Assembly: GCA_024239075.1 (NCBI GenBank)
Contig: JANBVI010000064.1
Coordinates: 558,001-622,000 of the forward strand
Source: Fischerella sp. CENA71
Lineage (GTDB): Bacteria; Cyanobacteriota; Cyanobacteriia; Cyanobacteriales; Nostocaceae
Length of the DNA stretch: 64,000 nucleotides
Direction: 5' to 3'
The notes under the pieces were generated by a model. The model saw nothing but the letters and a program-made list of their open reading frames with translations. It was not told the origin of the DNA and did no database searches. The number at the start of each line of letters is the position of its first letter. The first letter of the stretch is position 1. A program made the position numbers and the translations under genes. Shown here piece after piece: positions 9,559-50,303 of the stretch.

Positions 9559-12279
9559 ATGACCGCTTCTTACTCAGCATCCCAGCCCAACGCCAGCAAC
9601 AATGCGAACACGTTTATTACTGATCATCGACTTGTGGATCGCAGTAAGCTGACTCAAATGTTTCAGCATTATGTCGAAACAAAAGAGAAGTATCCCCATG
9701 CGGTGTTGCTGTATCGAGTGGGAGATTTTTTTGAGTGCTATTTTGAAGATGCGGTGATTCTGGCGCAGGAATTAGAACTTTACCTCACCAGCAAACCAGT
9801 CGGAGAAGTAGGAAGGGTGTCAATGAGTGGTGTGCCGCACCACGCTTGGGAACGCCACGCGACTCTGCTGGTAGAAAAAGGGTATGCGGTGGTAATTTGT
9901 GATCAAGTCGAAGATGCTTCGGAAGCTGTTGGGAGATTGGTGCGGCGCGAAGTAACGCGGATTCTCACTCCTGGGACTTTGCTCGAAGAAGGAATGCTGA
10001 AAGCCGGTCGCAATAATTACCTGGCGGCTGTGGTAATTGCTGGGGAACATTGGGGTTTGGCTTATGCAGATATTTCTACCGGGGAATTCCTAACTACCCA
10101 AGGTAGCATTAGTGAACATTTGACCCAAGAGTTAATGCGTTTGCAGCCCGCGGAGGTATTGGTTCCGACGAATGCACCTGATTTGGGAAGTTTACTCCGA
10201 CCAGGAGAGAAATCAGATCATCTACCGGAATGTTTACCACCGACGTTTTGTTATGCACTGCGATCGCAACTACCTTTTTCAGCAGGCGAAGCTAGATCCA
10301 GATTATTGCAGAAATTTAGGGTGCGATCGCTCGAAGGTTTGGGTTGCGAACACCTCCCCCTCGCAGTCCGGGCGGCTGGTGGTCTTTTAGAATACCTGGA
10401 AGATACACAAAAAGAAAGTTCTGTACCCCTGCAACCACTGAGAACTTACACAATTACTGATTATTTGATTGTAGACAGCCAAACTCGGCGTAACCTGGAA
10501 ATTACGCAAACTGTCCGCGATGGCAGTTTTCACGGTTCTTTACTCTGGGCTTTAGATAGAACTTCGACGGCGATGGGTAGTCGGGCTTTACGACGTTGGC
10601 TGTTACAACCGCTACTTGATACTAAAGGTATCCGGGCGCGGCAAGATACAATTCAAGAATTGGTGGAAAATACGCCCCTACGCCAAGATTTACGACAGTT
10701 ATTACGGCAAATTTACGATTTGGAACGTCTGACGGGAAGGGCTGGTTCTGGTACAGCCAATGCTAAAGATTTGGTGGCTTTGGCTGATTCTGTGTCCAAG
10801 TTGCCGGAGTTAGCGTTGTTAGTGATGGATGCTGCGTCTCTGTTTTTGAAAGCCTTGCAGAAAGTTCCCCCTGGTTTGGAGGAGTTAGGGCAAAAAATCC
10901 GTAGCTATATTGTGGAGTCGCCACCAATACATATTAAAGAAGGCGGATTGATTCGTCAGGGAGTTAATCCCCAGTTGGATGAAAGACGGGGTTTGGTGGA
11001 AGAAGACCAAAAATGGATTGCAAATTTAGAGGTTGATGAACGGGCGAGGACGGGGATTCAGACGCTGAAGGTGGGATTTAATAAAACTTTTGGATATTAC
11101 ATCAGTATTTCCCGTGCGAAGGCTGACCAAGTGCCGTCAAATTATATCCGCAAGCAGACTTTGACGAATGAAGAACGCTACATTACTCCAGAGTTGAAGG
11201 AACGGGAAGCGCGGATTTTGACGGCGCGGGATGATTTGAACCAGATGGAGTATGAAATTTTTGTAGCGTTACGAGAGGAAGTTGCAGCCCAGGCGGAGGT
11301 GATTCGGAATCTGTCGCGGGCTGTGGCGGCGGTGGATGTGTTGTGCGGTTTGGCAGAGTTGGCTGTTCATCAAGGTTACTGTTGTCCTCAGATGGTGGAG
11401 GGACGAGAGATTCATGTTGTGGATGGGCGTCATCCGGTGGTGGAACAGTCTTTACCCGCAGGGTTTTTTGTGCCGAATTCGACGAGTTTAGGAGGAGGAA
11501 AAGACGCCTCTGAAGATACGGTGACGCAAGAAGACACGGTGACACAAAGAGTCGGTGACACGGTAACGCAAGAAGACGCGGAAGGAAATAATGTCCCCGC
11601 TTCATCTTTCCCCGCCTCCCCGCGTCCTAATGTCTCCGCTTCATCTTTCCCCGCGTCTTCTTCTCCTGACTTAATCATCCTTACAGGACCGAATGCGAGT
11701 GGTAAGAGTTGTTATTTGAGACAGGTGGGTTTGATTCAGTTGATGGCACAAATTGGTAGTTTTGTACCTGCTAGGTATGCGAAGTTGAGTGTGTGCGATC
11801 GCATTTTTACCCGTGTGGGTGCAGTGGATGATTTGGCGACTGGTCAATCTACGTTTATGGTGGAGATGAATGAGACGGCAAATATTCTCAATCATGCGAC
11901 GTCGCGATCGCTTGTGTTGTTAGATGAGATAGGGCGAGGAACGGCGACTTTTGACGGGTTGTCAATTGCTTGGGCGGTGGCGGAATATTTAGCCGCTGAG
12001 ATTGAGGCGCGGACGATTTTTGCGACGCATTATCATGAGTTGAATGAGTTATCGAGTATTTTACCGAATGTAGCGAATTATCAGGTGACGGTGAAAGAGT
12101 TACCAGACCAAATTATCTTTTTGCATCAGGTTCAGCCGGGGGGTGCAGATAAGTCCTACGGTATTGAAGCGGGAAGGTTGGCGGGTTTACCTGGGGTGGT
12201 AATTCAACGTGCAAAACAGGTGATGAGTCAAATTGAGAAGCACAGTAAGATCGCGATTGGATTGCAGAGTTTGGAGTAA
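9559..12279 (+). CDS. mutS: DNA mismatch repair ATPase MutS
   Basis: 906-aa MutS homologue that binds base mismatches and recruits MutL. The N-terminal mismatch-binding motif is F-x-E-type ([14 protein letters not shown], about residue 55), the core and clamp follow, and the ATPase has Walker A GPNASGKS (about 711) and Walker B with [12 protein letters not shown] and ATHYHEL motifs. About 55 residues between PNSTSLGGG and [12 protein letters not shown] are low-complexity (DTVTQ and PASSFPAS repeats) and come from an in-frame GC-rich repeat (see 11501-11668); family members usually go straight to the Walker A strand here. It has its own upstream region and no cotranscribed neighbour. Confidence 0.96.
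11501..11668. repeat. GC-rich repeat inserted in frame in mutS
   Basis: Purine-rich units (GACACGGTGACGC-like, giving DTVTQ) are followed by pyrimidine-rich units (CCCCGCGTC/TTCATCTTTCCCCGC, giving PASSFPAS). The two halves are partly complementary, so the element can fold back. The length is a multiple of three, the frame is kept and the insertion precedes the ATPase domain. The same family occurs in frame in nifJ (63332-63468) and as an intergenic copy near 31635-31662. Confidence 0.75.
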
Positions 12280-12509
12280 TAGAACAAAGGCGATGTCCGT
12301 TGACTCGCCATGATTATTCCTAATAAAATTTCATTTTTTTGATGATACAACGTGAGTTCGATAAATATTATCAGACTAGACCATCAACGCGATCGTAAGT
12401 AAACTGGCAAATTGAGTCATAATAACCAAAATAGCCTTTATTATATTCATCCGCCAGTGATTTCATTCAAGTATATTTAGGAGATTTAACATTATCTAAA
12501 AATCAATTT

Positions 12510-13640
12510 ATGAATCAGGATTTACCACTATCAGAAAAAGTTGATGTTAGTGTTTTATCTCAAATATTTAACAATACAACTAATTCTTATAAATACCTTT
12601 ATTTTTTATCGTTATTAGATATTCTAAAAAGAAGAAACTTTGATACTTTATCGCCTATTAGCTTTCAAGACATTATTGTTGAGATGTTAGCTAATGCTTG
12701 GTATCCTCATAACTATTTTAAACTCTCTTTTGGAACTCAAGACCAAATTGCTAGTAAATTAGACGCTCTTGAGCTAGAAATTACAGAACCGATTTTAAAG
12801 TTTAGAGATACAGATAACAAACTTTTACGTAATACCATTAATAGTCAAAATATTGATGACATTATTAGTTCTATTAATCGCTATGTCTCCTATCGTTTAA
12901 TTCGTCCTTTCTTTGCTCAAGAAACTAGAGGATTGAAAGATTATGATGTTAATCAAACTATCATTAACTTAGCCAATAATCAATTTGATAGTAAAAAACC
13001 TTTGTATTACTTTAACGCTGAAGACCAGAAAAACTGTAACGCTATTATTTTAAATCCTGATTGGATTCAGTATTTAGAAGAAAATTACACAATAGTTAGG
13101 GGTTGGGCATCTTGGGAATGGTTAAACTATATGCAGCAAAGAAACCCCAGCACGCCTAATGTGGTTAATAAATTATTTATGCCACAAGAAAGAGATTCTT
13201 TGACGAATCAAACTAAATACTGGAAAACTATTTTAGAATATCGAGACATTGAATGTATTTACTCTAAAGTTAAATTGGATAAGAATCAGATTTCATTAGA
13301 TCATTATCTGCCTTGGTCTTTTGTAGCTCATGACCAATTATGGAATTTGATTCCAACTACAAAATCTGTTAATTCTTCTAAATCTAATAATTTACCATCA
13401 GAAAAATATCTTCGTGAATTTGTAACATTACAGCATTTAGGATTAACTATTTATAAGCAAAACGTTTCTCAAACAAAATGGTTAAATGATATTGAATCTT
13501 TTGTGGCAGAGTTGAAAGTTGATCAACCAGATGACTTATTAAATTTAGAAAATCTCATGAATGTTTATACAAAAACTATACAACCTTTGATTTCTTTAGC
13601 AACTCTCCAAGGTTTTAGCCCTGAATGGATTTACACCTAA
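12510..13640 (+). CDS. HNH endonuclease domain protein (defence-island type)
   Basis: 376-aa protein with an unannotated helical N-terminal region and a C-terminal HNH nuclease motif: C249-x-Y (ECIYSKVKL), the catalytic D264-H265 (LDHYLPWSF), then HDQLWNLIPTTKSVNSSKS with the Asn/Lys-rich tail of the fold. Such proteins are frequent in restriction and phage-defence clusters. It is much more AT-rich than mutS next door, which suggests recent acquisition. It stops 11 bp before the truncated helicase frame and heads a same-strand cluster with a GHKL ATPase. The N-terminal segment may recognise a target or partner; its role is unknown. Confidence 0.75.
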   Translation: MNQDLPLSEKVDVSVLSQIFNNTTNSYKYLYFLSLLDILKRRNFDTLSPISFQDIIVEMLANAWYPHNYFKLSFGTQDQIASKLDALELEITEPILKFRDTDNKLLRNTINSQNIDDIISSINRYVSYRLIRPFFAQETRGLKDYDVNQTIINLANNQFDSKKPLYYFNAEDQKNCNAIILNPDWIQYLEENYTIVRGWASWEWLNYMQQRNPSTPNVVNKLFMPQERDSLTNQTKYWKTILEYRDIECIYSKVKLDKNQISLDHYLPWSFVAHDQLWNLIPTTKSVNSSKSNNLPSEKYLREFVTLQHLGLTIYKQNVSQTKWLNDIESFVAELKVDQPDDLLNLENLMNVYTKTIQPLISLATLQGFSPEWIYT

Positions 13641-13651
13641 AATTCTGAATT

Positions 13652-14734
13652 TTGAATTTTGAATTTCTATTAGTAATCTGGTTAGCCTATAGTGAAGAAC
13701 TATGCGAACAAGCAGTTACAGAATTTCAAAAAGCCTGGGACAGTTTAGGCGATCGCACCACCACCATTTACCGCTTCTGGGGTAGCCATGATTTAGATAT
13801 AGAACAAGTTCAAGACGGCTTAGTAGTAGCAGGATTAGCCAAAGTTTACAACGCCGCTAAAAAGAGTATCCGCTTTATTAATCAACTGGGTGTGCGTTGT
13901 TCATTGGTAATCATCGACGAAGCCCATCAAGCAGTAGCCGAAACCTATAAACTCGTCTTAGATTCTCTCGTCGTCCCCTACGAAAAAACCGCCTTGTTAG
14001 GTTTAACCGCCACACCTGGACGGACTTGGGCTGATATTAACACCGATGCACAACTCGCTAAATTCTTCGCCCACCAAAAAGTTACTTTAGAAATTCCCGG
14101 TTATGACAACCCCATTGATTATCTGGTCGCTCAACAATACCTAGCTAAAGTTAACTATCGCTCTTTATTTTACAAAACCGGGATTGAATTAACTCCCCAA
14201 GACTTGAAGCGGATAAATACAGAATTAGACATCCCCCAATACATCCTCAATCGGTTAGCAGCAGACGAACAACGCAACCTCCGCATCATCCTCGAACTCG
14301 AAGCACTCGCCCCACATCATCAACGGATCATCGTTTTTAATACCTCCGTCGAACACGCGCGACTCATCGCTTCCATCTTGCGATTACGCGGCTTGAATGC
14401 TGATGCTGTTACAGGTGAAACCCCCAAATCAGAACGAGAAAAACTGATTCAAAGTTTTAAAGACGAACAACCCCAAACCAAGATTTTATGTAACTACGGC
14501 GTATTAACCACTGGTTTCGATGCACCCAAAACCAGCGCCGCAGTTATCGCCCGTCCTACCAAATCCCTTGTCCTCTACAGCCAAATGGTAGGACGCGGCA
14601 TTAGAGGAATCAAAGCTGGGGGTAATGCGATCGCCGAAATAGTCACTGTTGTCGATAGCCAACTTCCTGGTTTTGGTTCAGTCGCATCAGCCTTTCACAA
14701 TTGGGAAGACGTTTGGAGGAAAACCCATGAATAA
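13652..14734 (+). CDS. SF2 DEAD/DEAH-box helicase, N-terminally truncated (motif I missing)
   Basis: 360-aa frame with helicase motif II (VIIDEAHQ, D89-E90-A91-H92), motif III-like LTATPG (about 119), a RecA2 domain (QRIIVFNTSVEHARLIA) and motifs V/VI (LTTGFDAPK, QMVGRGIRG). The similarity begins abruptly at VIWLAYSEEL, equivalent to motif Ia; the Walker A (GxGKT) segment and everything before it are absent. The bases just upstream are repeat-like (GAATTTTGAATTTTGAATTT), so the 5' part was probably replaced or deleted. Without motif I the protein should not hydrolyse ATP, and it may be a remnant. Family relatives occur in restriction and DNA phosphorothioation clusters. It overlaps the next gene by 8 bp. 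Confidence 0.75.
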   Translation: MNFEFLLVIWLAYSEELCEQAVTEFQKAWDSLGDRTTTIYRFWGSHDLDIEQVQDGLVVAGLAKVYNAAKKSIRFINQLGVRCSLVIIDEAHQAVAETYKLVLDSLVVPYEKTALLGLTATPGRTWADINTDAQLAKFFAHQKVTLEIPGYDNPIDYLVAQQYLAKVNYRSLFYKTGIELTPQDLKRINTELDIPQYILNRLAADEQRNLRIILELEALAPHHQRIIVFNTSVEHARLIASILRLRGLNADAVTGETPKSEREKLIQSFKDEQPQTKILCNYGVLTTGFDAPKTSAAVIARPTKSLVLYSQMVGRGIRGIKAGGNAIAEIVTVVDSQLPGFGSVASAFHNWEDVWRKTHE

Positions 14735-16550
14735 CACCCATGATATTGTTCCGACTCACTTAGCAGTCCAAGCAATGCGCGATAACGGTTATAAAAACGC
14801 CGCCTATGCTTTAGCCGAATTAATGGATAATGCCATTCAAGCTGGTGCATCGCAAGTAGAACTATTGTGTGGGGAACGTAAACAACTGCTAGAAGGGAGG
14901 AAGCGATCGCGCATTGAACAAATCGCCGTGTTAGATAATGGTTGTGGGATGGATGCGAATGTGTTGCGTCTCGCCCTGCAATTTGGTAACGGGACATATT
15001 TAGATGAAGACAAACACACCGGAATCGGTCGTTTTGGCATGGGTTTACCCTCGTCTTCTATCTCCCAATGTCAGAGAGTTGATGTCTGGTCATGGCAAAA
15101 TGGCATAGAAAATGCACTGCATAGTTACCTAGATTTAGATGAAATTAAAAATCAACGACTGACAGAAGTACCCGAACCTACACCTCAAGCAATTCCCACA
15201 ACTTGGACAAGAATCGGTCAAAAATTTGGTGAAAGTGGCACATTAGTAGTATGGTCAAACATCGACCGTTCTATTTGGCGAACTGGCAAAGCAATTATTG
15301 ATAACTCAGAATTTGTGATTGGCAGAATGTATCGCAAATTTATTAATAGCGGTAAAGTCAAAATCCGCATGTTAGCTTTTGATTTAGATACTTTTAATTA
15401 TCTTGAGCCTGAAAAATATGCCCTTCCAAATGATCCTGGTTATCTAATAGAAAAGACTTCTTGTCCGCCTCCTTTTCATAACAAAGCAATGTTTGGAACT
15501 TGGCAAGGAGATACATCTTATGAAGCGACTTTCACTATTAATTTTAGGGAACAAGAACATGAAGTTAAAGTTCGCTTTTCTTATGCCAAGGAAGAAGCAC
15601 GTCTTATAGAAGGAGTAAATAATCCAGGAAGTACACCTCATGGACAACATGCAAAGAAAAACATAGGAGTTTCTATTATTCGTGCAGGTAGAGAACTAGA
15701 ATTAGATACAGGAGTAGTTAATGGTTATGATCCTACAGAACGTTGGTGGGGCGTAGAAGTAGAATTTCCCCCTTCCTTGGATGATATTTTTGGAGTAACT
15801 AATAATAAACAATCTGCTCGTAATTTAAGTGAACTTTTGCGAATAGATAGTCAATCTTTATCAGAAGATGGGAAGACATTCACACAGTTAAAGGAAGAGT
15901 TAAAAGAAGATGAAGATCCAAAAAGACCTCTCTTAGATATTGTCGATAAAATAAATAACCAGTTGAGTATTATTCGTGGTTGGCTCAAAGCCCAAACAAA
16001 AGGTACTCGTACCACCACTGAAAAACGCCATGACCCTTATAAACCTGAAAAAGTTGCCACTACTGTAACTCAAGAACGTAAATCACAAGGTTATAAAGGT
16101 CAAAGTGATGTAGATGAAAAATTACCCAAAGAAGAACGCAAACAAGTAATTAAAGAAACCCTCAAAGAAGAAGGAGTGACAGAAACAAAAGCTGAATTAT
16201 TAGCCGCCACCACAGTAGATGATGGCTTGAAATATACCTTTGTTGAAGCACCGCTTGATACTCCTGCTTTCTTCTCTGTTAAACCCAGAGGCGGAGCAAT
16301 TATTGTTACCTTAAATACTAATCATCCAGCTTATCAAAATTTAGTAGAAATCTTAGAAGAGGATGTTGATAAAGCTGATGTAGATACTTTACGTTCTCGG
16401 TTAGTTAACTCTTTGGATGGTTTAAAATTACTCCTCATGGCATGGGCTAGATATGAAGATGAACAGCCAGAGGGTAAATTTAAAGATAATGCTCAAGATA
16501 CCCGCATTGATTGGGGGAGAGTCGCTAGGAGGTTTTTAGAGAATGAGTAG
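14727..16550 (+). CDS. MORC/MutL-like GHKL ATPase
   Basis: 608-aa protein with a GHKL (Bergerat) ATPase domain: N-box AELMDNAIQAG, G1 box VLDNGCGMD, G2 region TGIGRFGMGLPSSS and a following S5-like domain. The NGYKNAAYALAELMDNAIQAG context resembles prokaryotic MORC-type proteins described in restriction-modification gene neighbourhoods. The C-terminal third is charged and probably coiled coil (about residues 400-510). ATG 14727 is preceded by GGAGGA (14715-14720) and lies inside the helicase 3' end, so the two are translationally coupled. A conformational clamp or loading role on DNA is inferred from GHKL relatives such as MutL and Hsp90. Confidence 0.8.
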   Translation: MNNTHDIVPTHLAVQAMRDNGYKNAAYALAELMDNAIQAGASQVELLCGERKQLLEGRKRSRIEQIAVLDNGCGMDANVLRLALQFGNGTYLDEDKHTGIGRFGMGLPSSSISQCQRVDVWSWQNGIENALHSYLDLDEIKNQRLTEVPEPTPQAIPTTWTRIGQKFGESGTLVVWSNIDRSIWRTGKAIIDNSEFVIGRMYRKFINSGKVKIRMLAFDLDTFNYLEPEKYALPNDPGYLIEKTSCPPPFHNKAMFGTWQGDTSYEATFTINFREQEHEVKVRFSYAKEEARLIEGVNNPGSTPHGQHAKKNIGVSIIRAGRELELDTGVVNGYDPTERWWGVEVEFPPSLDDIFGVTNNKQSARNLSELLRIDSQSLSEDGKTFTQLKEELKEDEDPKRPLLDIVDKINNQLSIIRGWLKAQTKGTRTTTEKRHDPYKPEKVATTVTQERKSQGYKGQSDVDEKLPKEERKQVIKETLKEEGVTETKAELLAATTVDDGLKYTFVEAPLDTPAFFSVKPRGGAIIVTLNTNHPAYQNLVEILEEDVDKADVDTLRSRLVNSLDGLKLLLMAWARYEDEQPEGKFKDNAQDTRIDWGRVARRFLENE

Positions 16551-16565
16551 CGAAGTGATAAAATA

Positions 16566-16910
16566 ATGTCTAATGAACCACAAGATGATCCGTTTTTTAC
16601 AGAACTCTGTCAAGAATACACATCCTCAGAAATCGCGGAAATTGAAAAATACTTAACAGAGTGGGATAAGGCAAGTTATATCAGCGTTTCTCATAACATT
16701 TTAGATCATGCCGCCAGAAAAGAAATTGACCCGTTAAAATTACTCCGTAAAGCACATAATTTTAACAAAAAAGGAGCATTGAGAATACCAAAATCAGGCT
16801 ATCGTCAAGATGGTTCAGCCGTTTATCGTAAAGGAAATGAATATTTAATTGTCCGTCCAGATAAATTTGGAACTGAAAAAATTGTCACTTATGGAGTGAA
16901 CGATGACTAA
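16566..16910 (+). CDS. Small unknown protein of the HNH/MORC cluster
   Basis: 114 aa, not recognised. The N-terminal half is acidic and helical (SSEIAEIEKYLTEWDKASYI). The C-terminal half is a basic, strand-rich segment (ALRIPKSGYRQDGSAVYRKG) that could bind nucleic acid. It starts 15 bp after the ATPase stop and overlaps the next gene by 8 bp, so it belongs to the same transcript and probably to the same complex. Confidence 0.65.
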   Translation: MSNEPQDDPFFTELCQEYTSSEIAEIEKYLTEWDKASYISVSHNILDHAARKEIDPLKLLRKAHNFNKKGALRIPKSGYRQDGSAVYRKGNEYLIVRPDKFGTEKIVTYGVNDD

Positions 16911-17301
16911 TACTACCTTGACTAATGAAAATCCTGAACTCACTAAGAATTATATCATTAAACTGTTAGAACAATTAACGATTGACTACCAAAATACTAA
17001 ATCAGAAAGACAGGCGATCGCTCATCAATTCCCTGTATCAGAAACAGAATTTACATTATTAGAAGAAATTGAGCTATTAACTACAGACATTCGAGGCTAC
17101 GCTAGTCAAATTAAAGCCAGAGGATATATAGAGAATCCACAGCAAGCAATTGCACAACTCAAGCAAAAACGAGTGTTTGATGTTCCGAGTATTTCCCAAT
17201 TGTATTTGCATAACTCTCATGAATACGAAAATATTAAGTTATACCTGAGAATGTTAGATTATTTAAGATTACTAATTTTAGAATATTTAACCTTTCAGTA
17301 A
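16903..17301 (+). CDS. Small helical unknown protein of the HNH/MORC cluster
   Basis: 132 aa, not recognised; largely alpha-helical with heptad-like hydrophobic spacing (YIIKLLEQLTIDYQNTKSER, then EIELLTTDIRGYASQI). It overlaps the preceding small gene by 8 bp, implying coupled translation. The position suggests an accessory or antitoxin-like partner of the island proteins; no catalytic motif is visible. Confidence 0.65.
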   Translation: MTNTTLTNENPELTKNYIIKLLEQLTIDYQNTKSERQAIAHQFPVSETEFTLLEEIELLTTDIRGYASQIKARGYIENPQQAIAQLKQKRVFDVPSISQLYLHNSHEYENIKLYLRMLDYLRLLILEYLTFQ

Positions 17302-17309
17302 AATTGATT

Positions 17310-17396
17310 AAAATTCACGCTCCAAATGCTCCAAGCGCAGAGAGAGTTGTTATCATAATTCTCTGCGTTCCTTAGCGTTCCTCTGCGTTTAAAAAA
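17310..17396. repeat. Dispersed CTCTGCGTTCC repeat upstream of the cysteine desulfurase gene
   Basis: Contains GCGCAGAGAGAG and the inverted CTCTGCGTTCCTTAGCGTT and CTCTGCGTTTAAA units, which can pair as a hairpin. The same family is found at 24740-24778, 60606-60626 and 61291-61366. It separates the desulfurase gene by 95 bp from the upstream cluster. Confidence 0.6.
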
Positions 17397-18545
17397 ATGA
17401 CCAACATAATCTACCTAGACTACCACTCAACTACTCCCGTTGATCCTAGAGTAGCTGAGAGAGTCATGTACTATATGACTACCGCCTTTGGTAATGCTAA
17501 TAGTGTAGATCATGATTATGGTAATGTAGCAGCAAAAGCAGTTAAACAAGCACATCAACAAATAGCAGAATTAATCAACGCCTCACCCAAAGAAATTATT
17601 TTTACATCTGGTGCAACAGAAAGTATTAACTTAGCAATTCAAGGACATATTGCACAACAAAATACCCCCGCCAAAATCATTGTTTCTCCAGTGGAACATA
17701 AAGCCGTTTTAGATACCTGCAAAGCATTAGCTAAAAAAGGACTGGTAGAAATTATTTGGTTAAAAGTCAATCAACAAGCGCAGATTGATTTAGAAAATCT
17801 CGAAAAAGTCTGTGCTGATGGTGCTTCCTTACTTTGTGTGATGGCGGCTAACAATGAAGTCGGGACAATTTACCCCATCCAAAAAATTGGCGCGATCGCA
17901 TCCTCCTACAATATCCCTTTCTTATGTGATGCTTCCCAAGCAGTCGGTAAAATTCCCATCAACTTTCAAGACTGGGGTATTACTTATCTAGCGATTTCTG
18001 GTCATAAATTTTATGCACCTAAAGGCGTTGGTGCATTAGTAGTAAAAAAAAGTTATGAACTTGAACCGATTATTTACGGTGGTGGACATCAACAGGGAAT
18101 CAGATCAGGTACACTCAATGTCCCCGGAATAGTTGGTTTAGGAGAAGCATCTCGATTGAGACAATTAGAGATGAAAATAGATGAAAGTGCGATCGCACTT
18201 TTGCGAGATCAACTGCAAAACTTGCTGCTAGCTAAAATTCCTAACTTAGTGGTGAATGGAGACTTAAACAACCGTTTATCAGGTAACTTACATATTTCAC
18301 TTCCTGATATTCCCAATAGTGCCATGATTGCGAGAGTTAGCCACCAGTTAGCTATTTCTAGTGGTGCTGCTTGTTCATCTGGTGTTGTTGCACCATCTCA
18401 TGTTTTACAAGCGATGAACCTGGCGGAAAATATAACAGAAGGAGCGTTGAGAATTGGTATTGGTAAATTTACGACTCAAGAAGAAATCGAAAAAGCATCT
18501 TCTGTAATTATCAGTGCAGTGAATTCCATTCACCAACTTCTGTAA
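17397..18545 (+). CDS. Cysteine desulfurase (IscS/NifS/DndA family)
   Basis: 382-aa PLP-dependent enzyme that takes sulfur from cysteine as a persulfide. The PLP lysine is K204 in SGHKFYAPKG, the cofactor-phosphate region TSGATESIN is present, and the mobile-loop active cysteine is C326 in ISSGAACSSG, a group-I (IscS-like) arrangement. It is not next to iscU or other Fe-S assembly genes. Instead it follows the HNH-helicase-GHKL cluster on the same strand, recalling DndA in DNA phosphorothioation loci. A housekeeping role in tRNA thiolation or Fe-S supply is equally possible because no dndB-E genes are visible in the window. Confidence 0.85.
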   Translation: MTNIIYLDYHSTTPVDPRVAERVMYYMTTAFGNANSVDHDYGNVAAKAVKQAHQQIAELINASPKEIIFTSGATESINLAIQGHIAQQNTPAKIIVSPVEHKAVLDTCKALAKKGLVEIIWLKVNQQAQIDLENLEKVCADGASLLCVMAANNEVGTIYPIQKIGAIASSYNIPFLCDASQAVGKIPINFQDWGITYLAISGHKFYAPKGVGALVVKKSYELEPIIYGGGHQQGIRSGTLNVPGIVGLGEASRLRQLEMKIDESAIALLRDQLQNLLLAKIPNLVVNGDLNNRLSGNLHISLPDIPNSAMIARVSHQLAISSGAACSSGVVAPSHVLQAMNLAENITEGALRIGIGKFTTQEEIEKASSVIISAVNSIHQLL

Positions 18546-18759
18546 CGCTCCTACTATCCAAACCTCAAAAAACAACGCTGACACCAACCGCAAGCAGATA
18601 AAAAATCAGTGGAATTAGTGCGATCGCACACAAGCACTAAATTGGGCAAGCTACTATTTAAGAAGCTAGTACAGATGATTTCCAAAAGTCATCTGTTAGA
18701 GTCAACACACCAGCATATATAGTCAAACCTCCGAACCAGCCAGCACTAAGAGAATATTC

Positions 18760-20232
18760 ATGCTAACAAATACCCTACTTCTGTCCCAACAACTCCCCAC
18801 TCTGCAATACACCTCGACTACAGAACGATTCGATGAAACCTGGGAAGCTCCCCTAGCTACCCTCTTAGGACTAGGACGCGCTGCTGGCGCTGATTTTATC
18901 GAATTTTTCTTAGAGCGTGTTAATTACATTAGTTGTCTTGCAGAAGAAGATACCATCACCAGCATTACACCACGTCTTTCCACTGGTGCAGGAGTCAGAG
19001 TATTTAAAGGACATGCAGACTGCTATGTCAGCACCAATGACTTATCTTTTGCAGGCTTAAAAGCAGCTTTAGAAAAAGGGCTTTCTATTCTAGGATTGCA
19101 GCTACCTGCTCCCAATGCTTTAATTCCCGAAATCAACCTAGAACTACTCAGAGATTACGCCACTAAAAGAGGAAAAGATAGTTGGTTATCTCTGTGTAGT
19201 TCTATCCGGGAAATGGGAGAAATTCTCCTTGATGGTACAGCCCAACTCCAGCGTAAAGCTAATCATATCCAATCCCGCCGTGCTACCTACTTCCGAGATT
19301 GGCAAGAAGTCCTAGTTGCTGCTAGCGATGGTACTTTTGCTCGTGATATTCGCCTCACCCAATCTGTAGGATTTAATCTCCTGTGTGCAGATGGTGCTAA
19401 TCGTACTTCCATCGGTGAACGTGCTGGTAACACCAGTGATCCGAACTTCCTCAAAACCTGGGATTATCAAGAATCAGCAGAACATATCTCTGAATCCGCA
19501 GGAAAAATGCTCTACGCAGACTACGTAGAATCAGGGACTTATCCCATAATCATGGCTAATCACTTTGGTGGGGTAATCTTCCACGAAGCTTGTGGACACT
19601 TGCTAGAAACCACCCAAATTGAACGCAAAACATCTCCCTTCGCTGATAAAAAGGGTGAAAAAATTGCCCATGAAAGCCTCACCGCTTTGGATGAAGGACG
19701 TACCGAACAAGCCTTCGGTACAATTGACATGGATGACGAAGGTATGCCAGCCCAAAAAACATTATTAATAGAAAAAGGCATTCTCAAAAACTTTTTAGCA
19801 GATCGAGCCGGTTCCTGGCGCACCGGACACCCTAGAACAGGTAGCGGACGCCGCCAGAGTTTTACCTTTGCAGCTGCTAGCCGGATGCGTAACACTTATA
19901 TTGCACCAGGAGAATACACAACCGAAGATTTATTTGCTTCCGTTGATAAAGGCATTTACTGTAAAAAAATGGGTGGCGGTAGCGTTGGTGCTACAGGACA
20001 ATTTAACTTTGGTGTAGACGAAGCATATTTGATTGAAAACGGCAAAATTACCAAGCCACTTAAAGGAGCAATTTTAATTGGTGAAGCCAAGGAAATTATG
20101 AATAAAATTTCCATGTGTTCCCAAGATTTATCTTTAGCGCCTGGTTTTTGTGGCTCCGTCAGTGGCAGTATTTATACCACAGTTGGACAACCTCATATCA
20201 AAGTTGATTCAATAACCGTAGGCGGACGCTAA
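18760..20232 (+). CDS. tldD: Metalloprotease TldD homologue
   Basis: 490-aa zinc metalloprotease subunit. The HExxxH motif is at residues 275-280 (HEACGHLLE), followed by the [10 protein letters not shown] and [15 protein letters not shown] segments typical of TldD. With TldE it forms a heterodimeric protease that degrades unfolded peptides and processes some peptide antibiotics and antitoxins. tldE lies downstream, interrupted by a four-helix-bundle gene. Confidence 0.93.
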
Positions 20233-20237
20233 ACAAT

Positions 20238-20705
20238 TTTGGATTTTAGATTTTGGATTTTGGATTGTGAATGAGCAACAGTTTAAAACTAGAACTAAAC
20301 AGCTTGCATTAAGAGTGATTAATTTAGTTGAAGCATTGCCGCAGACCAGAAGTGCCGATGTAATTGGTAAGCAGCTTTTGCGCGCTGCGACTTCTGTAGC
20401 AGCTAATTATAGAGCTGCTTGTCGAGCAAAATCAACGGCTGATTTAATTGCAAAACTGAGTATTGTTGAAGAGGAAGCCGACGAAACTCTTTTTTGGCTT
20501 GAGCTTACTGTTGAAAGTGGATTGATACCAACAGAAAAGCTTGTTAATTTGATGCAAGAAACAAATGAAATTCTAGCTATGACTGTAGCTTCGATAAAAA
20601 CTCTACGAGCCAAGCAAACACATTCTCCTAACCAAAATCCAATATCTAATATCCAAAATAAACTTTCTACAAATCCAAAATCCAAAATCTAAAATCTAAA
20701 ATTGA
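20238..20705. mobile_element. Possible repeat-flanked cassette carrying a four-helix-bundle gene
   Basis: The tldD-tldE junction contains TTTTGGATTTTAGATTTTGG-type heptamers (20238-20268) on the left and the complementary AAATCCAAAATCCAAAATC-type heptamers (20671-20703) on the right. Together they form inverted terminal-like repeats around the single gene at 20267-20692. The gene's start codon and last 20 or so codons lie within the repeats. This looks like a cassette inserted between two genes that are often adjacent, but no target duplication is evident. Confidence 0.4.
20267..20692 (+). CDS. Four-helix-bundle protein (23S rRNA intervening-sequence S23 family)
   Basis: 141 aa. The core pattern (LALRVINLVEALPQTRSADV, QLLRAATSVAANYRAACRAKS, EEEADETLFWLELTVESGLI) matches the S23/IVP four-helix-bundle family first known from intervening sequences in 23S rRNA genes. 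These small proteins form pentamers and have no established function. GTG at 20267 is the start. The C-terminal tail after RAKQTHS (NPISNIQNKLSTNPKSKI) is encoded by heptamer repeats and is probably not part of the ancestral protein. Confidence 0.85.
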   Translation: MNEQQFKTRTKQLALRVINLVEALPQTRSADVIGKQLLRAATSVAANYRAACRAKSTADLIAKLSIVEEEADETLFWLELTVESGLIPTEKLVNLMQETNEILAMTVASIKTLRAKQTHSPNQNPISNIQNKLSTNPKSKI

Positions 20706-20707
20706 CT

Positions 20708-22048
20708 ATGCCAAACATCAGCGAAATTGCCAATTACGCCAAGGATAGTGCAAATAAACTTGGGATCAAAAAATTCGATATCTATGGCTCAAGTGCAGAT
20801 GCAATTAGTGTACAAGTTGATCAAGGTGAACCTAAGCAAGTTAAAGCTTCAAATCTTTCTGGTGTCACTGTCCGAGTTTGGAATGATAAAAATACAATGG
20901 GTGTCACCAGCACCTCAGATGTAGACCCCAAAGGACTAGAATTAGCTTTGAAAACAGCTTATGAAGCTAGTTTTTTTGGTGTCAAAGAAAATGTGCCAGA
21001 TTTTAGTCCAGAAGCTACTGTTGAAATTGCTGTTCAACAAAAAGATAAATCACCACAAGCACCAGTTTCTCAATTAATAGAAACTTTGTTAACGGCTGAA
21101 AAAGAAGTCTTAGCAGCTCATCCGGCAATTCAAGGAGTACCTTACAACAACCTAGCCCAAAGAGATATTGATAGATTCTATCTCAATAGTGATGGTGCTA
21201 TCAGAACTGAGTCTCACTCTTTAGCATCTATTTATCTCTACAGCAAAACCGAGGAAGAAGGAAAAAAACCTCGCAGTGCTGGTGCTTTTAGAGTTGAGCG
21301 CAGTTTAGAAAGTTTAGATATTCATGGTTGCATTCAAGAAACAACAGAGAAGACTATCAGCCACTTGAACTATGAAAAAGTTAAGTCTGGTAAATATACA
21401 GTTGTTTTTTCACCAGATGCTTTTTTAAGTCTTTTGGGTGCTTTTTCTAATTTGTTTAATGCCCAAAATATTCTAGATAAACAGAGTTTATCTACTCCTG
21501 ATGATTTAGGCAAACAAATAGCTTCTCCTTTGCTTTCTGTCTATGATGACGCTTTGCATCCTGCTAATGTTGGCGCAGAAACTTTTGACGGCGAAGGAAC
21601 TCCAACTCGGCGAATTTCATTGATTGAAAATGGTGTTTTAGCTAGCTTTATACATAGTGCAGGTACTGCCAAAAGGATGAATGCTAAACCCACAGGAAAT
21701 GCCAATATTGGTGCAAAAGTTACCGTCAGTCCTAACTTTTATCATGTTTTTGCTGCTGCACCAGGTGAACAAGAATTGAGCATAGAAACTGCTGAAAATG
21801 TAATTCTTATTGATGATTTACAAGCTCTCCATGCAGGCGTAAAATCTTTGCAAGGTTCGTTTTCTTTGCCTTTTGATGGTTGGGTTGTCAACAAAGGTGT
21901 AAAGACGAGTATTGAATCAGCGACTGTTGCTGGTGATTTTCTACAAGTTCTCAAGTCAATTATTTTTGTGGAAAAAGAACAAGAGTTGACTCCTGGAGGG
22001 GTTTGTCCAAGAATTTGGGTTGATGGACTTTCAATTACGGGAGAATAA
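20708..22048 (+). CDS. pmbA: TldE/PmbA metalloprotease subunit homologue
   Basis: 446-aa partner of TldD. TldE lacks the HExxxH site, as here, and has the conserved SVYDDALHPANVGAETFDGEG and RRISLIENGVLASFIHS segments and a C-terminal GDFLQVLKSI region. ATG 20708 (MPNISEIANYA) is preferred over a TTG two codons earlier. It ends before an 18-bp hairpin shared with the convergent SDR gene. Confidence 0.93.
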   Translation: MPNISEIANYAKDSANKLGIKKFDIYGSSADAISVQVDQGEPKQVKASNLSGVTVRVWNDKNTMGVTSTSDVDPKGLELALKTAYEASFFGVKENVPDFSPEATVEIAVQQKDKSPQAPVSQLIETLLTAEKEVLAAHPAIQGVPYNNLAQRDIDRFYLNSDGAIRTESHSLASIYLYSKTEEEGKKPRSAGAFRVERSLESLDIHGCIQETTEKTISHLNYEKVKSGKYTVVFSPDAFLSLLGAFSNLFNAQNILDKQSLSTPDDLGKQIASPLLSVYDDALHPANVGAETFDGEGTPTRRISLIENGVLASFIHSAGTAKRMNAKPTGNANIGAKVTVSPNFYHVFAAAPGEQELSIETAENVILIDDLQALHAGVKSLQGSFSLPFDGWVVNKGVKTSIESATVAGDFLQVLKSIIFVEKEQELTPGGVCPRIWVDGLSITGE

Positions 22049-49797: not shown

Positions 49798-49971
49798 GTA
49801 TAGAATTTACTGCAAATAAAGTAAAAAATGACTGATTTTGGATGTTTTCCGTTGCTGCACCTGGTATCTTAACGATACCAATTTTTGGTGCTAATTGTTG
49901 CAGGTCGGAGATTAGGGATTGGGGAGCAGGGATCGGGGAGACAAGGGGGTTGAGGTTTTTCAGATCCGTGA

Positions 49972-50275
49972 AGGTTCTTGTTTGAAGTGGGAAAGTTCTT
50001 GTTTGAAGTGAGAAAGTTCTTGTTTGAAGTGAGAAAGTTCTTGTTTGAAGTGAGAAAGTTCTTGTTTGGAACGAGAAAGTTCTTGTTTGAAGTGAGAAAG
50101 TTCTTGTTTGAGGTGAGAAAGTTCTTGTTTGAAGTGAGAAAGTTCTTGTTTAAAACGAGAAAATTCTTGTTTGGAACGGGAAAGTTCTTGTTTAAAACGA
50201 GAAAATTCTTGTTTGAAGTAAGAAAGTTCTTGTTTGAGGTGAGAAAGTTCTTGTTTAAAACGAGAAAATTCTTGG
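49972..50275. repeat. 21-bp tandem array (about 14 units) with heptad reading frame
   Basis: Fifteen TTCTTG anchors occur at exact 21-bp steps from 49975 to 50269 without a single indel. Consensus on the plus strand is GAAAGTTCTTGTTTGAAGTGA. Three frames stay open across it. Of these, the minus-strand frame K-Q-E-L-S-H-F puts Leu and Phe at heptad a/d positions, and its substitutions (L/F, H/R/Y, mostly F/L) are conservative. That frame is open from 50292 to 49963 (110 codons) but contains no start codon and is preceded by TGA. A relative lies at 54058-54142. Confidence 0.8.
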
Positions 50276-50303
50276 AGAGCATCCCAATTTTTTCAATGTA
50301 CCA

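Follow-up and report, generated by a model that had tools for sequence, protein, structure and literature searches.

A probable relic of an Ssp-type DNA phosphorothioation island in the cyanobacterium Fischerella sp. CENA71

Between mutS and tldD of Fischerella sp. CENA71 lie six genes on one strand, encoding a nuclease, a helicase, an ATPase, two small proteins and a cysteine desulfurase, and the question that this locus raises is whether the six form a defense system of their own or are what is left of another. The window, meaning the whole stretch of 64,000 nucleotides analyzed here (contig JANBVI010000064.1, positions 558,001 to 622,000), lies on contig C64 of genome G000; further labels of the form G and L denote genomes and fetched loci, respectively. 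A sequence-only reading had put the six genes forward as a candidate defense system that matched no named one. We estimate at about 0.8 the probability that deletions have reduced an Ssp-type DNA phosphorothioation (PT) defense island to the relic seen here.

The ATPase and its partners in intact ssp operons

Homologs of the ATPase were gathered from 100 related genomes (15 matched, some weakly or partially), the GTDB contig set added 39 loci, wider flanks were fetched, and loci with coverage of at least 90% and identity of at least 38% were kept. The resulting set of 47 excludes the window, the duplicate contigs L057 and L060, the weak or partial rows L067–L070 and L045, the short first fetches L001–L016 and the HNH-derived fetches. 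Clustering of neighboring open reading frames (ORFs) revealed recurrent partners, identified with PADLOC and Pfam as SspB (DUF4007, E = 2e-67), SspC (up to 1611 bits), SspD (PAPS reductase, 383 bits), SspE (1117 bits, L024), a DndB-like protein and a PLD-type protein whose Pfam PLD matches are weak. Within the fetched stretch, sspB, sspC or sspD was present at 43 of the 47 loci, in keeping with the earlier suspicion of a defense locus as the source of ATPase, helicase and desulfurase. A helicase lies near the ATPase in 45/47 loci and a PLD gene in 25/47 at the threshold used. Among the four ssp-less loci, L062 and L065 carry ssp genes elsewhere in the genome and L040 and L053 show none. The parent loci hold sspB, sspC and sspD together, typically in the cyanobacterial operon order sspB-sspC-sspD-effector-helicase-MORC-PLD-sspA, with sspA carried mostly in cyanobacteria. 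The core partners of the ATPase are sspB, sspC and sspD, often with the PLD gene, and all of these are gone here.

Plasmids provided a further sample. The ATPase was found over at least 80% of its length in 13 plasmid records and SspC in 69, and at least 12 of the 13 also carry SspC (60 of the 69 SspC rows compared), the thirteenth ATPase being only 25% identical. The hypergeometric chance of this overlap is ~3e-36 if kinship is ignored; the records include two near-copies that belong to a single species (Trichormus variabilis), and two are apparently genomes already sampled (G072 and G140). Plasmid A of T. variabilis ATCC 29413 bears the full annotated operon in the order DUF4007, hypothetical protein (SspC), PAPS reductase, two hypothetical proteins, DndB, helicase, ATP-binding protein, PLD and cysteine desulfurase, and the window desulfurase is 66% identical to its counterpart in the T. 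variabilis ssp operon. On an Agrobacterium plasmid (NZ_CP039925.1; L193, 5705–18991), helicase and MORC ATPase stand beside an endonuclease-like gene, SspF, SspG and SspH, with SspC ~13 kb away; this adjacency indicates that the ATPase is not SspG itself.

Two observations on sspC stand apart. In four related genomes (L134, L138, L139 and L146, family f14) the sspC match falls into two pieces with the same split (residues ~758–764), and the Synechocystis PCC 6803 plasmids NC_005229.1 and NC_020296.1 match the first half of sspC only (residues 5–565 of 1168).

The features of the window locus are as follows.

9559–12279: mutS, the flanking gene on one side of the six-ORF run
12280–12452, plus strand: mutS-side sequence, which in G004 extends to the start of sspB and here stops at the breakpoint 12452/12453 (blastn against L145)
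12510–13640, plus strand: HNH_4 endonuclease (Pfam HNH_4), catalytic core present, N-terminal XRE-HTH deleted
13641–13675, plus strand: junction between the HNH stop and helicase codon ~182 (junction comparison)
13652–14734, plus strand: C-terminal two thirds of a superfamily 2 (SF2) helicase, codons ~182–540 of the 540-residue form (tblastn)
14727–16550, plus strand: intact MORC/paraMORC-type GHKL ATPase (HATPase_c_3; partial match to the MzaB model)
16566–16910, plus strand: SM1, first gene of a two-gene cyanobacterial cassette (co-occurrence with SM2)
16903–17301, plus strand: SM2, second gene of the SM1/SM2 cassette (present in 60 of 291 genomes)
17397–18545, plus strand: intact SspA/DndA-type cysteine desulfurase (PADLOC DndA and SspA matches)
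18595–18600, no strand: right edge of the island (homology to G001–G003 restarts at 18592–18599, blastn)
18760–20232: tldD, the flanking gene on the other side

The six plus-strand ORFs thus lie where the sequence-only reading had placed them, as do both 8-bp overlaps, one between the ATPase ATG at 14727 and the helicase stop ending at 14734 and the other at 16903–16910. Pfam assigned HNH_4 (5e-11), Helicase_C (2e-13), ResIII (2e-9), HATPase_c_3 (2e-21) and Aminotran_5 (4e-75) to the window proteins. The desulfurase scores 475 bits on the PADLOC DndA model and 472 bits on SspA, and it retains the near-invariant K201 and C323 (aligned-segment numbering), which we take to be the lysine that binds pyridoxal 5′-phosphate and the catalytic cysteine; the hint at sulfur chemistry drawn from this gene was correct, the enzyme being SspA. 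In the ATPase the GHKL N, G1 and G2 boxes are conserved (E40/D43/N44, D79–G83 and G110–L116, segment numbering), its match to MzaB reaches 76.6 bits against an NCBIfam cut-off of 850, and its nearest named relatives in the GTDB contig set are Nostoc and kin. Near-invariant columns are retained at 121/122 positions in the ATPase, 62/62 in SspA, 86/87 in the HNH protein and 46/46 in the helicase part, and the GHKL and HNH motifs picked out earlier fall in such columns. Two of the earlier identifications need amending. The helicase does keep its DEAH box, together with the motif-VI region, but its first ~180 residues are gone and Walker A (motif I, GxGK[T/S]) is absent from the open frame, a point missed before; this motif is present in 37/51 helicase rows examined (two duplicate contigs counted). 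Likewise, the HNH_4 core is real, but the XRE-HTH domain of its nearest relatives has been lost, which had gone unstated.

Deletions at the mutS–tldD site

A search of genome G000 returned no match to SspC, SspD or DUF4007 (PF13182) anywhere, and the PLD gene is absent from the window locus. A congener, G004, shows what the same site can hold: there the order is mutS-sspB-sspC-HNH-helicase stub-SM2-sspA-tldD, also without SspD. Relative to G004, the window has lost 5.85 kb at the breakpoint 12452/12453, comprising sspB, sspC and ~66 HNH codons, and G004 in turn has a 3.24-kb deletion corresponding to window positions 13712–16951. In the congeners G001–G003, homology to the window restarts only at ~18595, and mutS does not appear within the fetched 12.7–13.9 kb upstream of tldD. 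The window is a clear case of stepwise erosion, with deletions that differ between two congeners. As the locus has no sspB, sspC or sspD, no helicase ATP-binding motif and no PLD gene, an active restriction system is unlikely, and judged by its gene content the window is very probably unable to mark DNA or to work in the ordinary way.

The truncation of the helicase has a wider distribution. Helicase codon ~182 directly follows the stop codon of HNH in loci of the Nostoc type, with L020, L113 and the window as exceptions; a short AT-rich repeat occupies the junction in the window and L113. An HNH gene is present in 12/12 truncated-helicase loci (window and L113 counted) and in 0/35 full-helicase loci of the ATPase set, and in L134 and L146 a short HNH stands alongside the whole helicase or the greater part of it. 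On both the helicase tree and the ATPase tree, truncated copies are interspersed with full ones, so the HNH-helicase junction probably spread through recombination. We also considered the HNH gene as an intron or intein splitting the helicase, and rejected this on the grounds that no helicase part before codon 163 occurs in the fetched truncated-helicase HNH loci and that at the junction HNH ends in a stop codon of its own.

Several observations weigh against a relic. The median pairwise ratio of nonsynonymous to synonymous substitution rates (dN/dS) is 0.118 for truncated and 0.102 for full helicases, a comparison that, with the copies interleaved, does not address selection after truncation. 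The near-complete retention of near-invariant residues fits recent damage or continued use. The G000 assembly comprises 95 contigs (99.9% complete per table), making a missed gene unlikely but possible. Finally, the strain carries a dndB/C/D/E locus with an extra 521-residue gene and no dndA adjacent (L189, 2552–10277, contig C4 of G000), so PT chemistry could still draw on the window desulfurase in trans, and the enzyme may also supply sulfur to other users. The dndB of this locus was named from its DGQHR-like sequence and has no PADLOC match. Three more desulfurases of G000 exceed 400 bits against the DndA model, and a pair of these outscore that of the window.

The HNH gene, the Dnd genes and the small-protein cassette

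The presence of Dnd genes bears on a further possibility, that the window encodes a stripped-down working system in which HNH and the MORC ATPase restrict by way of the strain's double-stranded Dnd PT marks, the helicase without its motor serving as scaffold. The intact active-site columns and the dndBCDE genes without an adjacent dndA agree with this proposal, as does the condition of the HNH frame, which is open in 32/37 matches of at least 300 residues while sspC is at least 95% complete in only 5 of the 36 HNH-centered loci as fetched (G004 and a second stretch of G072 among them). Nevertheless, DndC, over the cut-off in 226/291 genomes of the order, is not commoner in genomes with XRE-HNH (17/22), and HNH decays too, with 14 shorter core fragments of which 9 contain stops. 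The truncated helicase is even shorter in L018, L022 and L029 (ORFs of 275–279 residues), has an internal deletion in L019, is cut to codon 372 in L113 and is reduced to a stub in L145. G004 lacks helicase and ATPase yet retains HNH and sspA. Overall, we regard a working system of this kind as rather unlikely. The same DndC counts led us to reject the idea that HNH is incompatible with any PT.

Full-length relatives of the HNH protein have 462 residues with XRE-HTH and HNH_4 domains. The HNH query matched 87/291 genomes of the order, many in the XRE part alone, and 29/36 HNH loci contain sspA, sspB, sspC or sspD in whole or in part, often truncated. A further alternative is that the HNH gene is a selfish or competing element eroding ssp loci after insertion. 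The ssp genes beside XRE-HNH are truncated at widely varying positions, and intact SspD is found in 2/22 XRE-HNH genomes versus 9/16 with short HNH (Fisher p = 0.003, optimistic since the genomes are related, with classes that we set ourselves, G000 excluded for its lost XRE and G250 for a contig-end cut, and one of the nine intact SspD genes itself cut by a contig end). Conversely, a short HNH sits between intact sspC and sspD in L137 and beside a full helicase in L134 and L146, and L113 combines XRE-HNH with fully intact sspBCD. A selfish role for HNH is unlikely. A fold search with an HNH structure model gave 396 matches at E ≤ 10 and none at E ≤ 0.001; among 50 of the 396, a good TM-score for the length is confined to an XRE-domain match with a controller protein. 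A phage search with HNH returned one record, 24% identical.

The remaining alternative, a genuine new six-gene defense system, draws on the single strand and overlapping genes and on the similar sets in L058 and L113 (HNH, helicase part, ATPase, SM1, SM2 and SspA). However, L058 and L113 keep sspB and sspC, and L113 also sspD; HNH occurs in 0/24 non-cyanobacterial ATPase loci; and in most sampled genomes SM1/SM2 and HNH occur independently of the ATPase. Where the 100 genomes scanned for the ATPase overlap the 291 scanned for SM1, SM2 and HNH, the ATPase is absent from 13/14 genomes with SM1, 16/17 with SM2 and 10/13 with the HNH core. For four of the 100 genomes outside the 291, the loci show it present in G041 (SM1, SM2, HNH), G028 (SM2, HNH) and G029 (SM2), and absent from G004 (SM2, HNH). 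The co-conservation proposed by the sequence-only reading therefore fails for the small pair and HNH, which are not tied to the ATPase, and a new six-gene system is very improbable.

SM1 and SM2 instead constitute a separate two-gene cassette, unrelated to the Ssp locus. SM1 was found in 45 and SM2 in 60 of the 291 genomes; for 47 of the 49 SM1 places listed, SM2 lies within 450 bp, and the two are adjacent in 44 of 45 sampled SM1 genomes. As reported earlier, the proteins are unrecognized: neither has a Pfam family up to E 0.1 or a PADLOC or NCBIfam family, SM2 has a single NCBIfam match far below the cut-off (E 0.064), and family and PDB searches with SM1 gave no useful match (best PDB E 0.039). 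The cassette is perhaps a toxin-antitoxin pair, a likeness of layout only.

Three further observations concern other parts of the window. A small ORF at 20267–20692, between tldD and a second TldD-like gene (20702–22048), falls largely in an alignment gap in G001–G003 and aligns in G004. Around 11512–11547, MutS (9559–12279) includes an in-frame low-complexity stretch (DTVTQED..., PASSFPAS...) with an 18-bp tandem repeat. A minus-strand ORF at 49869–50282 consists of repeated KNFL-type units and is probably translated DNA repeats.

The helicase-MORC-PLD module and known systems

In the intact relatives of this eroded island, SspA would take sulfur from cysteine, and SspB, SspC and SspD would insert it into the host DNA backbone, as judged here by homology. 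The helicase-MORC-PLD module encoded in the ssp operon probably attacks unmarked DNA: the GHKL ATPase may clamp or loop DNA, the SF2 helicase may translocate and the PLD nuclease may cut. With a PbeA-like helicase and PLD as separate genes around the MORC ATPase, a clamp-translocate-cut restriction complex appears the likeliest mode by analogy. The operon is often shared with an exchangeable effector (SspE, a DndB-like protein, GIY-YIG or HNH), and the module adjoins sspFGH on at least one plasmid, suggesting a modular arrangement. What remains in the window is an intact desulfurase, the MORC ATPase, an HNH core and the unrelated SM1/SM2 cassette.

Published work covers both the writing of PT by SspABCD and the restriction carried out by SspE or SspFGH (PMC8092258 and PMC13251355), and a role of MORC-type ATPases in bacterial restriction was predicted from gene neighborhoods (PMC2292703). 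SspFGH is reported to be toxic when sspBCD is missing (PMC8092258). Of 2,678 sspBCD loci, 2,211 are reported to lack both sspE and sspFGH (PMC8092258), leaving most without a known restriction partner. On a modest balance of probability, Ssp systems have a third, undescribed restriction module in the helicase-MORC-PLD operon; by record titles this operon spans at least cyanobacteria, Pseudomonadota, Bacteroidota, Bacillota, Myxococcota and Actinomycetota. The open-access papers searched, supplements aside, yielded no account of the module, among them passages of PMC2292703, PMC10853773, PMC12839542 and PMC8011034. As a conserved module with a predicted defense role it is a concrete candidate for the missing partner and, if correctly assigned, would help account for the loci without sspE or sspFGH and link MORC-type ATPases to one defined DNA mark.

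Comparison with known systems places the locus among several partial likenesses. The helicase scores best among PADLOC models on PbeA (E 4e-28, full form), a partial match. PbeA is described as a fusion of an HKD nuclease with an SF2 helicase (PMC10853773), which a helicase with a separate PLD gene resembles in split form; unlike PbeABCD, the window proteins include no PbeB–D match and have a MORC ATPase instead. The GHKL ATPase beside an SF2 helicase and nucleases recalls the MORC/paraMORC restriction neighborhoods of Iyer et al. 2008, whose Fig. 2 legend names Nitrococcus mobilis, the organism of L044; in contrast, passages of that paper, section 5 among them, deal with methylases and restriction endonucleases, and in its text "PAPS" does not occur and "sulf" occurs solely within a genus name (PMC2292703). 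From DISARM, the PLD protein weakly matches DrmC, a partial match far below family level, but no component exceeds family level among the window proteins, and from Mza the ATPase partially matches MzaB with no other component among them. SspA scores equally as DndA, and DndB-like proteins occur in related loci; unlike Dnd, the window proteins include no DndC, DndD or DndE, and the strain's dndBCDE lie on another contig. The window HNH matches Pfam HNH_4 and, in PADLOC, only Cas9 models, and so differs from SspE (DUF262/GmrSD_N with a C-terminal HNH); no window protein matches the PADLOC SspF, SspG or SspH models, which do match L193. The closest kinship is with SspABCD-SspE and SspABCD-SspFGH: parent loci carry sspB, sspC and sspD, some also SspE (L024) and one plasmid SspF, SspG and SspH, although neither the SspE nor the SspFGH models match the helicase-MORC-PLD module. 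The window itself, having lost sspB, sspC and sspD and retained SspA, is best described as a damaged locus of the known Ssp kind, and novelty lies at most in the helicase-MORC-PLD variant.

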